In this document: in pieces, positions 17,912 to 33,280 of the stretch
How the letters are laid out: each line of letters starts with the position of its first letter
Position numbering within the stretch: the stretch's first letter is position 1
The notes under the pieces: model-generated
The model's database searches: none
Told to the model about the DNA's origin: nothing
Seen by the model: the letters and a program-made list of their open reading frames with translations, nothing else
Assembly (NCBI GenBank): GCA_023819525.1
Contig: JAMWCT010000004.1
Span: 1-34,817 of the forward strand
DNA from: Candidatus Omnitrophota bacterium
GTDB lineage: Bacteria > Omnitrophota > Gorgyraeia > Duberdicusellales > 4484-171
DNA length: 34,817 bases
Direction: 5' to 3'
Translations under genes and position numbers: made by a program

Positions 17912-18973
17912 ATGAGTGATATTCTTCTGGTATATGCAAGTTTCGGGGAAGGGCATAAAATCGCGGCTATATCTTTAGAAAAGTTCTTAAATGCACCTTC
18001 ATATGACCTTTTAGATTTTTCATCTAATTTTGTAAAGAAGTTTTTTTCATATAGTTATATAAATATAACTCAAAATATGCCTAATTTATGGAGACTACTT
18101 TTTTATGGAACAAAAAATAAACGTATACAAAAAAGTATTGAAAAAATTAATCTATTTTTAGCCAATAAATTTTTGCTTTATTTAAAAAAAACAAAACCAA
18201 AAATAATCATAACAACTCATTTTTTTCCACTGTATTTTATTGCAAAAGCAAAAAAAGAATTTCCACTTAAAGTTATTGCTATTGTTACAGATTTAGCAGC
18301 GCATCCATTATGGGTAAATACTTGTGTGGATCGTTATTTTGTTGCTACAAAGCAAACCAAAGAAGAACTTATTTCTTATAATGTAGAGACAGATAAAATA
18401 ATATCTGGCTATGTTCCATTAAGAGAAGGATTTTTAGAAAAATTAAATGAAAAAAATTTGCGAAAAAAATTTTTTTTAGATGATAAACCTTGTCTTTTAT
18501 TTATGTCATCTTTACGAGGAAAGTTTCCTTATTTAAGGGGGTCTATTAAAAAGTTAAAAGATAATTTTAATATTTTTATCATATGTGGAAGAAATAAAAA
18601 ATTAAAAAATTATTTTTCGAAATTAAAATGTCCTTCAGTCAAACTTTTTTTAAAATATGAAAACATATGGGAGTTATTTTATTTAAGTTCCGCTATTATC
18701 ACTAAACCAGGTGGTCTTACAGTTTTTGAAGGGCTTTATATGAAAAAGCCATTTATTTTTACAAGTTTTATACCCGGCCAAGAAAAAGAAAATATGGATT
18801 TTTTAATTAAGCACGGTGTGGCTAGATTTGCAAAAAGTAAAAAACAATTTTTAAATGCAATCGATTATTTTGCATTCAAAAATAATTTTTTTAAACAAAA
18901 TTATCCTATAGAGGTTAGAGACATTAGGGATATTTTAAAGAAAAATCTTATCCAATTACTAAAGGCAAAATGA
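17912..18973 (+). CDS. MurG/MGDG-synthase-like glycosyltransferase
   Basis: ILLVYASFGEGHKIAAISL; TKPGGLTVFEGLYMKKPFIFTSFIPGQEKEN. Confidence 0.85.
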   Translation: MSDILLVYASFGEGHKIAAISLEKFLNAPSYDLLDFSSNFVKKFFSYSYINITQNMPNLWRLLFYGTKNKRIQKSIEKINLFLANKFLLYLKKTKPKIIITTHFFPLYFIAKAKKEFPLKVIAIVTDLAAHPLWVNTCVDRYFVATKQTKEELISYNVETDKIISGYVPLREGFLEKLNEKNLRKKFFLDDKPCLLFMSSLRGKFPYLRGSIKKLKDNFNIFIICGRNKKLKNYFSKLKCPSVKLFLKYENIWELFYLSSAIITKPGGLTVFEGLYMKKPFIFTSFIPGQEKENMDFLIKHGVARFAKSKKQFLNAIDYFAFKNNFFKQNYPIEVRDIRDILKKNLIQLLKAK

Positions 18974-20757
18974 ACTTTTCTGTTGCAAAGATAATTTTAC
19001 CTGTTGCAATAAATAAAAGTTTTGATTATAAAATACCAAATTCTTTAAAACTAAAAATTGGGATGCGAGTTTTGGTTGATTTTAATAATAAAAAGAGAGT
19101 GGGTGTAATTTCTGCCTTTCGAAACACCTCAGAGATTAAAATTAATAAGTTAAAAACTATACTTAGTGATTTAGAAAATTTTCCCTCAATAAGTAAAGAG
19201 CATCTAAATTTCGCATCTATTTTAAGTAAATATTATCTTTATTCACAAAATGAGTTTGTTTTTATGATGCTTCCACAGTATTTAAAAAAGCCTAGAAAGA
19301 TTTTTTTTAAAGAGATTTCTATAATAAAGCCACAGAAAGATAAATTTAAAAGAGTTTTTATAAAAAATGATACATTTAATAAAAGATACACTTTTTGGAA
19401 AAATATAGTAGCAGAAGAGTTGGAAAAAGGTTCTGTTATGATTTTATTTCCACAAATATCTTATCTTAATTATGCGCGCAATATATTAGAAAAAGATTTT
19501 TCTGACAGAATTTGTATATTACATAGTCAGCAGAAAGAAAAAGAATTATTTTTAAATTGGCAAAATTCAAGAAAAAGAAGTCTTATTCTAGGCACACGCG
19601 TTGCAATTTTTTATTACCCCTTAGATTTAAATTTGCTTATTGTGGAAGATGAAAATAGCCCTTATTATTTTCAAGAAGAAAAGCCTTTCTATCATCTTTT
19701 GGAATTAGCAACTTTGCTTTCAAAATTTAAAAAGATTAGTTTAATTTTAAGCGCAGATTACCCATGTTTATCCACATATAAATTTATTCTTAACGGCCAA
19801 ATAGATTTTAAAGATAATTTATCAGCAAACAAAAAAATAGAAATAGTAGAGACAAAAGGTTCGAAAATTTTTAGCCCGCTTTTGGTAGAGTTAATAAGAA
19901 AAAATCTTTCGGATAATAAAAAAATAGTTTTACTGTGGAATAAAAAAGGTTTTGCAAGGGTTTTGTATTGTAATAGTTGTGGTTACTCTTTTAGATGTCA
20001 ATATTGTTCTGGTTTTTTACATCTTCTGGATGTTACTACTGGAATATGTTCTTATTGTTACAGAAAACAGGTTATTCCAAAAATATGTCTTGCTTGCAAT
20101 AAAGGTTACATTAAAGGAAAGGGTTTAGGCATACAGAGATTAGAAGCTATACTAAAAAATATATATCCAGATGTAAAAATAGCAACTTTAGAAGATATGA
20201 CAGCTGATACACAGATTATTCTTGCTACATCAAAAATATTAAATTTTTTATATAAAGATGAGTTTTTTGATGTAGGTTTTCTTTTAGATACTGATATGTT
20301 TCTTTCGCAACCAGATTATCAGGCAACCTATGATACTTTCATATATATAAATAAACTTTCTTATATTTTTAAAGATATTTTGTATGTAATGACTCATAAT
20401 AAAAACCATTATATTTTTAAAAATTTATTAAAGTGGGAGGAATTTTATAAAGAAGAATTACAGTTGCGCAAACAATTTGATTTACCACCTTATAAAAAAA
20501 TAGCAGATATCATAATACGTGGAAAAAATAAAAATAAACTTTCTAAAAGGGTAGAAAATTTGTATAATAAATTAAAACAATATAAAAATGTTAAAGTTTA
20601 TGGACCTTTAGAAAATTATCCACCTAAATTGCGAGGTAAATTTTATTATAAATTAGTTATTAAATCAAAAAGCCAAATACGCTTACGGCAAATTTTAAAA
20701 AATGAAATAGAACAATTACGGGCTTCTTCTTTCAAAATAGCACTTATCATTAGATGA
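18970..20757 (+). CDS. priA: PriA-family (primosomal protein N') homologue with degenerate helicase motifs
   Basis: N-terminal 3'-BD pattern, PriA zinc-binding Cys cluster (CNSCGYSFRCQYCSGFLH...CSYCYRKQ...PKICLACNKG) and GKGLGIQRLEAILK; Walker A, DEEH and motif VI not conserved. Confidence 0.8.
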   Translation: MNFSVAKIILPVAINKSFDYKIPNSLKLKIGMRVLVDFNNKKRVGVISAFRNTSEIKINKLKTILSDLENFPSISKEHLNFASILSKYYLYSQNEFVFMMLPQYLKKPRKIFFKEISIIKPQKDKFKRVFIKNDTFNKRYTFWKNIVAEELEKGSVMILFPQISYLNYARNILEKDFSDRICILHSQQKEKELFLNWQNSRKRSLILGTRVAIFYYPLDLNLLIVEDENSPYYFQEEKPFYHLLELATLLSKFKKISLILSADYPCLSTYKFILNGQIDFKDNLSANKKIEIVETKGSKIFSPLLVELIRKNLSDNKKIVLLWNKKGFARVLYCNSCGYSFRCQYCSGFLHLLDVTTGICSYCYRKQVIPKICLACNKGYIKGKGLGIQRLEAILKNIYPDVKIATLEDMTADTQIILATSKILNFLYKDEFFDVGFLLDTDMFLSQPDYQATYDTFIYINKLSYIFKDILYVMTHNKNHYIFKNLLKWEEFYKEELQLRKQFDLPPYKKIADIIIRGKNKNKLSKRVENLYNKLKQYKNVKVYGPLENYPPKLRGKFYYKLVIKSKSQIRLRQILKNEIEQLRASSFKIALIIR

Positions 20758-21686
20758 TGCGTTATATTTTTTTTGGTAGTTCAGAATTTTCTTGTATTAT
20801 TTTAGAAAGACTTTGTCAACAAAGTATTTCTCCATCTTTAATTATAACTCAACCGCCTAAAAAAAAGGGTAGGGGTCTAAAAGAATTACCGACCGAAGTA
20901 GGTTTATTTGCTAAAGAAAATAATCTCACCCTACTTACACCAGAAAATTTAAATAACGGAGAACTTATTGAGAAGATAAGAAAATTTGAGCCACATTTAT
21001 TTATCGTTGTAGACTATGGTAAAAAAATACCTAAAAATTTACTTTTAATCCCAAAAATATTACCATTAGGCATACATCCATCAATTTTGCCAAAATATAG
21101 AGGTCCTGCTCCAATAAATTGGGCAATTATTAATGGAGAAAAATATAGCGGCGTAACTATATTTAAGATTACAGAAAAAATAGATAGTGGCCAGATAATT
21201 TTGCAAAAAGCAATAGAAATTTTAGATACAGATGATGCAATTTCTTTAAAAAATAAATTGGCTTTTTTGGCAGTCGATTTACTTTTAGAGACATTAAACA
21301 ATATAAAGACTAATAACTTTAAACTAACGCCACAAGACCAAAATTTAGCCACATTTGCACCAAAATTAAAAAAAGAAGACGGTAAAATAAATTGGGATAA
21401 CGAAGCTAAATGTATATTTAATTTAATAAGGGGACTAAAAGGTTGGCCATCAGCATATACTTATTTTCACCAGACAATGATAAAAGTTTTAGAGGCAGAA
21501 GTTTGCGAACAAAAAGTATTGCAACCACCAGCGACTATTGTAAAAATTGATAAAACTGGTATATATGTATCTACAAAAAAGGGCATATTAAAAATTAAAA
21601 AATTACAACCCCAAAATAAAAAAAATATGGATGCATATGCTTTTGTAATAGGTCATAAAGTTAAGGTAGGTGATAAATTTTTATAA
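20754..21686 (+). CDS. fmt: Methionyl-tRNA formyltransferase family protein
   Basis: FFGSSEFS, GIHPSILPKYRGPAPINWAIINGEKYSGVTIFKITEKIDSGQI; FAPKLKKEDGKINW. Confidence 0.9.
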   Translation: MMRYIFFGSSEFSCIILERLCQQSISPSLIITQPPKKKGRGLKELPTEVGLFAKENNLTLLTPENLNNGELIEKIRKFEPHLFIVVDYGKKIPKNLLLIPKILPLGIHPSILPKYRGPAPINWAIINGEKYSGVTIFKITEKIDSGQIILQKAIEILDTDDAISLKNKLAFLAVDLLLETLNNIKTNNFKLTPQDQNLATFAPKLKKEDGKINWDNEAKCIFNLIRGLKGWPSAYTYFHQTMIKVLEAEVCEQKVLQPPATIVKIDKTGIYVSTKKGILKIKKLQPQNKKNMDAYAFVIGHKVKVGDKFL

Positions 21687-27636: not shown

Positions 27637-27689
27637 TTAAAATTTTATTCTAAATTAAATATTACATAGTTTCGAAAAGATCACGTTAT

Positions 27690-28014
27690 TTAAACATTTT
27701 TTCCCTTTACAAAGTTAAAATAGTTAGTTTTTCATATTATGCATAACTTAATAAGTGTAAGCGTTTTAAAAAGTTTAATTTTTTTTAAAAGCTTTTAGGG
27801 TTAAATTTTAAAAATGGTTTATCTAAAGCTTTAATAAAAAGATGATTTTTTTTTGGATTAGTCAAATTGACACAAAAGATTTATCTAGTATTTATCAATA
27901 GCAGTCTTTGATAAAAAAATTAGGACTATCTTGATATTTTAGATGCGTAAAAAGGAATAAATATGCACTTAATTTACTATCACTAAGACTTGAAACTTTA
28001 ATTGATTTAATAAC
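27690..28014. repeat. Degenerate repeat copy A (upstream of rrn)
   Basis: Shares ordered blocks with 34587-34817: AAAGTTAAAATAGTTnGTTTTTCATATTATGnATAACTTAATAAGTGTAA, GCTTTAATAAAAAG, AATTGATTTAATAAC. Confidence 0.65.
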
Positions 28015-28067
28015 TAAGAGACTAAAAGTGGATACCAGCTGTCTAAACAAATATTTAAAAAAAACTC

Positions 28068-28095
28068 TTGACAAAAAAAATTTTTGGATTATAAA
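28068..28095 (+). promoter_or_regulatory. rrn promoter P1 candidate TTGACA-16-TATAAA
   Basis: TTGACA 28068-28073, TATAAA 28090-28095. Confidence 0.6.
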
Positions 28096-28114
28096 TATTA
28101 CACCTGCCAATTCT

Positions 28115-28143
28115 TTGACAATTAAAGAAATTTATGCTATATA
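28115..28143 (+). promoter_or_regulatory. rrn promoter P2 candidate TTGACA-17-TATATA with extended -10 TGC
   Basis: TTGACA 28115-28120, TATATA 28138-28143, TG at 28135-28136. Confidence 0.6.
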
Positions 28144-28190
28144 TCTTATAGGCAGAAATTTAATTAGAGTAGAAAAATAGGTTTTTGTTT

Positions 28191-28227
28191 ATAAAAGCAT
28201 CAAAAATGATGCTTTTATTATTTTTTT
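28191..28227 (+). terminator. Intrinsic-terminator-like hairpin in the putative rrn leader
   Basis: ATAAAAGCATC / AAAAAT / GATGCTTTTAT, 11-bp perfect stem followed by TATTTTTTT. Confidence 0.65.
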
Positions 28228-28236
28228 GTTCTTTGA
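28227..28236 (+). promoter_or_regulatory. boxA-like antitermination element TGTTCTTTGA
   Basis: Matches the bacterial rrn boxA pattern TG(C/T)TCTTT(A/G)A; lies about 20 nt before 16S. Confidence 0.55.
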
Positions 28237-28256
28237 TCTTAAATTGGAATTAAAAC

Positions 28257-29843
<1,587 letters not shown>

Positions 29844-29966
29844 CAATTTAATTTTTTTTTAGAGCTAGATTTCCTCCAAAGGTTTTTTATTCATTTTAGC
29901 ACTATAAAAACAAATTCAATTTTGAGAACATTTATTATTTCCGTCTTTACGCGATAAAGCACGGAA

Positions 29967-30039
29967 GGGCCCATAGCTCAGTTGGCAGAGCACCGTGCTG
30001 ATAACGCGGGGGTGTCTGGTTCGATCCCAGATGGGCCCA
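29967..30039 (+). tRNA. tRNA-Ile (GAT)
   Basis: GGGCCCA/TGGGCCC acceptor, anticodon loop CTGATAA, GGTTCGATCCC T-arm; CCA not encoded. Confidence 0.96.
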
Positions 30040-30124
30040 TTCTATGGAGCACAACAGATATATACGTTTTCAATAGTTTTTAAAATTACTCTTAGCCATA
30101 ACTCACATATCATTAGCCATTAAA

Positions 30125-30197
30125 GGGGCCGTGGTTCAGTTGGGAGAACGCCTGCTTTGCAAGCAGGAGGTCAGCGGTTCAAATCCGCTCGGCTCCA
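30125..30197 (+). tRNA. tRNA-Ala (TGC)
   Basis: GGGGCCG/CGGCTCC acceptor, anticodon loop TTTGCAA, GGTTCAAATCC T-arm. Confidence 0.96.
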
Positions 30198-30288
30198 AAG
30201 AAGGAAAAGTAGATAGTTAGGATAGCAAGTTTTAAATTTAATAAAAAATTAAAACTTACGAATTTAGAAGCATAATATTATTTTAAAT

Positions 30289-30300
30289 TGTTCATTGAAA
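30289..30300 (+). promoter_or_regulatory. Second boxA-like element TGTTCATTGAAA in 16S-23S spacer
   Basis: Position and sequence similar to spacer boxA just before 23S. Confidence 0.4.
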
Positions 30301-30303
30301 ATT

Positions 30304-33280
<2,977 letters not shown>

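Follow-up and report, generated by a model that had tools for sequence, protein, structure and literature searches.

Loss of the helicase motifs from PriA in a Candidatus Omnitrophota genome and its probable role as a pseudohelicase

The only PriA of this organism is likely a pseudohelicase, which would recognise forks and recruit DnaB but not unwind DNA. Its ATP-binding and hydrolysis motifs were gone. The fold, the 3'-end-binding domain, the fork-wedge (aromatic-rich) loop, the zinc region and the C-terminal core were kept. This eroded state was inherited across a very large clade of Omnitrophota and had more than one origin.

Omnitrophota are uncultured bacteria of nano size and form a large group. 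The window, which means the whole stretch of 34,817 nucleotides analysed here, belonged to a metagenome-assembled genome (MAG) of 1.65 Mb that was estimated to be 90% complete and 4.3% contaminated. The nearest named records to this genome were Candidatus Omnitrophota MAGs, such as Ca. Susulua stagnicola, and all Omnitrophota genomes in the comparison were draft or metagenome assemblies. Families are given as anonymous f- and p-numbers, and f1 is the family of the window's genome.

Results

Loss of the helicase motifs in PriA

The priA homologue of 595 aa was located at 18970..20757 on the plus strand, and domain profiles, a phmmer alignment and an AlphaFold model pointed to a pseudohelicase. 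The former motif I (P-loop), placed by alignment and model, covered residues 134-143 (19369..19398, plus strand) and read DTFNKRYTFW, with Arg139 at the position of the Walker Lys. Intact relatives had TGSGKTEVY at this site. The former motif II was aligned to residues 222-233 (19633..19668, plus strand), which read LLIVEDENSPYY, compared to LIIVDEEHETSY in intact relatives. DEEH was changed to E(D/E)EN. The former motifs V and VI were aligned to residues 419-467 (20224..20370, plus strand). Intact relatives had GTQMIAKGLDFP...QVAGRAGR there, and in the window PriA GTQM...AKG and QVAGRAGR were replaced, with D442 and D449 kept. The signatures of an active helicase, Walker A GxGKT, DEEH, motif V GTQM..KG and motif VI QVAGRAGR, were all missing, and no intact GKT or DExH was found elsewhere in the protein. 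The original prediction had quoted strings for motifs I, II and V/VI, and alignment with intact relatives showed that they were placed at the right positions.

In the main eroded clade, the motif columns of 89 homologues showed the same erosion, which is far beyond chance. The Walker A Lys was kept in 6% of these proteins and was Arg in 80% (100% in f1). The motif V Gly was retained in 3%, and the Q/G/R/G/R residues of motif VI in about 3-4% or less. The motif II glutamate, E228, was kept in 97% of the clade. This glutamate and the frequent Arg could mean that ATP hydrolysis persists in a rearranged site, with Arg for the Walker Lys and EExN for DExH. However, K230R alone abolishes the ATPase of E. 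coli PriA (PMC4504706), and the P-loop glycines, the Thr, the Q-motif Gln and the motif VI arginines were all lost in the window PriA. Such a rearranged site was considered very improbable.

Predicted structure

The AlphaFold model of the window PriA had a pLDDT of 90.8 and a pTM of 0.88. In a Foldseek search with this model, the nine best matches were all PriA structures, and the top match was 8fak with a TM of 0.88. At the P-loop site, the model had a three-residue loop and a helix from residue 136. The intact control had a strand, a five-residue loop and a helix at Lys174. With the shorter loop and the early helix of the model, the phosphate loop appears to be absent as a structure too. We also considered that PriA might be locked in a fork-bound shape, because the TM was 0.88 for 8fak and 0.67-0.76 for other PriA structures. 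However, the intact control likewise matched 8fak (0.87), so this preference is no evidence for a locked state.

Retained modules of PriA

Two Pfam domains were matched in the 595-aa ORF, PriA_3primeBD (PF17764, 2.6e-24) and PriA_C (PF18074, 9.1e-13). No DEAD/ResIII and no Helicase_C domain was over the Pfam cut-off in this protein. The equivalog profile TIGR00595 gave 195 bits, which was below the curated cut-off of 230. The phmmer alignment to Klebsiella and E. coli PriA spanned residues 3-108 and 123-579.

The 3'-DNA-binding domain was retained at residues 7-102 (18988..19275, plus strand), with F18, D19, Y20 and R33 invariant. Conservation also identified the aromatic-rich loop region at residues 230-241 (19657..19692, plus strand), with Y233, Q235, P239 and Y241 kept. 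The cysteine-rich (zinc) region (19969..20097, plus strand) had all eight conserved cysteines, namely C334, C337, C343, C346, C360, C363, C373 and C376. The C-terminal domain was retained at residues 507-587 (20488..20730, plus strand). The retention of the 3'-binding domain and the zinc region had been predicted, and it was borne out by the profile match and the cysteines. The protein was identified as PriA by these three modules together with the PriA fold and the locus beside fmt.

Retention was compared between 44 intact and 89 eroded PriA of the main clade at positions at least 95% conserved in the intact proteins. Mean retention in the eroded proteins was 0.89 in the 3'-binding domain, 0.80 in the zinc region and 0.62 in the C-terminal domain. 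Helicase domain 1 retained less (0.48), and the motif V/VI part (HD2b) retained least (0.32). The zinc cysteines were kept in 94-96% of the eroded proteins, and the C-terminal residues E496, R500 and P507 in 100%. The positions kept in domain 1 (W197, G208, F214, Y233 and P239) were structural sites and the aromatic-rich loop. In an alignment of diverse PriA, no stretch was conserved enough for a collection-wide scan.

The priA locus and selection on the gene

The downstream gene fmt (20754..21686, plus strand) overlapped the priA stop, and the upstream gene, an MGDG-synthase-like glycosyltransferase (17912..18973, plus strand), overlapped the priA start and was a conserved neighbour in f1. 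In eroded lineages, fmt was directly downstream of priA in 32/32 cases in f1, 4/4 in f2, 20/21 in f4 and 5/5 in p46. The same order was found in many intact lineages. Since intact and eroded lineages share this locus, the gene is the ancestral priA and not a paralogue, and it was inherited vertically at the priA-fmt locus. The conserved neighbours were a HAD phosphatase, the glycosyltransferase, fmt and ligA, and no helicase that could supply a motor was found near priA. A second, intact PriA would have pointed to a decaying paralogue. None was found in the window's genome or in three single-contig relatives (G001, G004 and G025).

The reading frame was open in every sampled relative. The dN/dS of nine degenerate PriA pairs was 0.07-0.30. 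Four intact pairs were compared, of which three gave 0.06-0.09 and one was saturated in dS. The eroded PriA is under purifying selection and is not a decaying copy. Fast divergence and the few relatives without detectable PriA, such as G053, are what a gene decaying toward loss would give. However, the low dN/dS, the lack of internal stops in own-family relatives and the residues invariant across a very deep clade made decay very unlikely. An assembly or alignment artefact could be suspected in a MAG that is 90% complete. However, the identical eroded state was found in more than 30 own-family members from separate assemblies, single-contig ones included, and an artefact is hardly credible.

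Two other features were observed. No ORF of at least 100 aa was found on either strand at 27637-32783 of the window, where tRNA-Ile and tRNA-Ala lie at 29967-30197, and this region is probably an rRNA operon. At L002:715-2604 (minus strand), an Mfd-like protein of 629 aa had the RNA-polymerase-binding and translocase parts and apparently no UvrB-like N-terminal module. Mfd-like ORFs of similar length were present in other genomes of the phylum.

Distribution and number of losses in Omnitrophota

The phylum was surveyed with TIGR00595 and protein searches, and PriA was extracted from 150 genomes. The distribution was bimodal, with PriA either fully intact or eroded. Intact proteins, of about 660-750 aa, carried GxGKT/S, DEE(H/Q), GTQM..KG and Q.(A/G/S)GR(A/S)GR. 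They were found in 18 families of the window's class and in most other classes. Eroded PriA was found in f1, f2 and 17 more families of the same class (f42 by a fragment only), and in p46 of another class. No genome with both forms was found among the matches listed. Two high-completeness genomes, G053 and G184, had no detectable PriA, which may be real loss or assembly gaps.

A species tree was built from 22 ribosomal proteins of 77 genomes. The eroded state needed 4 changes on this tree, and the starred branches also forced at least 4. These were in one very large clade, in f13 (beside intact f7), in f20 (beside intact f17) and in p46. FastTree also set f6 apart. In the PriA gene tree, 2 origins sufficed, which is possibly the result of long-branch attraction. 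With the ribosomal data, a single origin within the class was rejected by the AU test when f13 was included (p 0.011) and was not rejected without f13 (p 0.31). Our range is 2 to 5 independent motor losses, with 4 as the best estimate. The original prediction was a parallel loss of ATPase activity, and the loss of the catalytic motifs was recurrent within Omnitrophota.

The whole zinc region was deleted in three eroded lineages, which were p46, part of f30 (4/6 genomes) and one genus of f1 (G027). This deletion is a later step that followed motor loss. The zinc-deleted loci were L126-L130, L132-L135 and L143.

SSB tails and the PriA pocket

The acidic PF tip of SSB is normally a central docking motif in bacterial genome maintenance. 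The SSB of the window's genome (L260:1483-1947) ended in ...DNTGESL and had no canonical tip. SSB C-termini were compared in 95 genomes (relatives' loci L261-L360), with second paralogues left out. A PF end was found in 34/35 genomes grouped as intact-PriA, a group that includes G053, the genome with no detectable PriA; the exception was f34. It was also found in 7/7 genomes of f6, f13, f20 and p46, which were eroded separately. The chromosomal SSB had it in 0/53 genomes of the main eroded clade, which includes the window's genome. The single-contig genomes G004 and G125 had one SSB each, neither with PF. The tails of the main clade were recurrent, with (V/I)DLG(E/S)EP and an LGEAI-like end in the window's order and D-D-I/V-x-W-x-E in sister groups.

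The SSB-tip pocket of Klebsiella PriA consists of Trp82, Tyr86, Lys370, Arg697 and Gln701 (PMC5531588). The Trp, the one pocket residue compared, was present in 38/44 intact PriA. It was likewise present in f34, f20 and every p46 protein, and 0/~95 PriA of the main clade had it. From these sequences, PriA of the main clade seems no longer to use the standard SSB-tip contact. As this clade accounts for only one or two losses of the tip, the correlation is no statistical proof of coupling. The motor can be lost without the tip, because f6, f13, f20 and p46 kept the tip with an eroded PriA. It is possible, and we suggest this tentatively, that the whole SSB-PriA interface was rewired in the main clade, with clade-specific tails instead of the bacterial (D/E)xPF tip, a lost pocket Trp and a non-unwinding PriA that is recruited otherwise.

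Second SSBs were observed in f26, f30, f32, f36 and f41. In G120 (L359, G120:C11:57000-58400), a second SSB paralogue, possibly a PriB-like duplicate, was just upstream of priA. None of the other listed genomes had this arrangement.

The lost pocket Trp, the fast evolution of the helicase core seen in HD2b and the zinc deletions would also fit a repurposed PriA that kept DNA binding and gave up restart, e.g. as a fork-protection or structural protein. However, the kept residues belong to the modules that read forks (the 3'-binding domain, the aromatic-rich loop and the C-terminal domain), and no other PriA was found that could carry out restart. Repurposing was considered unlikely, and a PriA pseudohelicase in restart is preferred.

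Discussion

Proposed function in replication restart

The window's genome carries RecG, a UvrD-type helicase, DciA and SSB. In the proposed mechanism, abandoned forks and D-loops would be recognised by structure. PriA would then serve as a landing pad for DnaB, and the loader involved would probably be the DciA-type protein of this genome. The lagging strand would not be unwound by PriA; single-stranded DNA may be exposed by the RecG or UvrD-type helicase, or exposure may be unneeded at most forks. The E. coli zinc region is needed for PriB docking. The zinc region is deleted in three lineages, so downstream assembly must differ from that of E. coli in these lineages at least.

A RecG-like partner had been proposed as a check, and RecG is present here. 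However, as a compensating helicase it was rejected, because it was found in all 80 genomes whatever the PriA state, and a UvrD-type helicase in all 40 tested. RecQ was over the cut-off in 6/40 genomes with both kinds of PriA, and not in the window's genome. No gain of a compensating helicase was found in these three comparisons. DciA was not found in some genomes at the search sensitivity used and was more divergent in the main clade. Since it was present here and in most genomes, it is no clean correlate of eroded PriA.

The original prediction of a non-catalytic restart scaffold was supported in that the catalytic residues were lost, the fold and the binding modules were kept, and selection was purifying. 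The scaffold role itself would follow from what is known in Deinococcus and E. coli. That prediction did not include the precedent in Deinococcus, the recurrence across the phylum, the loss of the SSB tip or the zinc-domain deletions that came later.

Since E. coli can restart without the helicase motifs of PriA, their conservation is a puzzle. Close relatives in one phylum kept or lost the motor several times, which allows the puzzle to be tested by comparing them. The SSB-tip loss that accompanies the eroded PriA of the main clade suggests that central docking hubs are replaceable, and it offers natural variants for study. The annotation "priA helicase" is incorrect for a large set of genomes.

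Comparison with known systems

No earlier account of motor loss in Omnitrophota was found in open-licence papers, and a report in a subscription journal could exist. The window PriA probably belongs to the pseudohelicase class of the Deinococcus type, as its catalytic residues are lost and its fold and binding domains are under selection. D. radiodurans PriA has no ATPase and still binds forks and DnaB; it lacks functional ATPase and helicase residues, with Walker Lys changed to Arg, and keeps the DNA-binding parts (PMC4504706). However, the changes described there are milder and confined to Deinococcus-Thermus. In Omnitrophota, the motifs are erased, as known here from sequence, the loss was recurrent within one phylum, and the zinc region was deleted in some lineages.

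The actinobacterial PriA, whose helicase motifs are missing in annotation records, is likewise a single divergent PriA, in an unrelated phylum. It is a smaller, very divergent orthologue (PMC1193525). In Omnitrophota, intact and eroded forms stand side by side, and the transition is traceable.

Compared with E. coli and Klebsiella PriA (8fak, 4nl4 and 6dcr), the fold and domain order are alike except for the winged helix (TM 0.88). The window PriA lacks the P-loop, DEEH, motif V, motif VI, the winged helix and Trp82. In E. coli, PriA-PriB restart does not depend on the PriA ATPase in vivo, and DnaB is still loaded by K230A PriA in vitro (PMC10175261). The K230R and K230A proteins are a functional model of ATPase-free primosome assembly, as point mutants in contrast to the extensive natural erosion in Omnitrophota.
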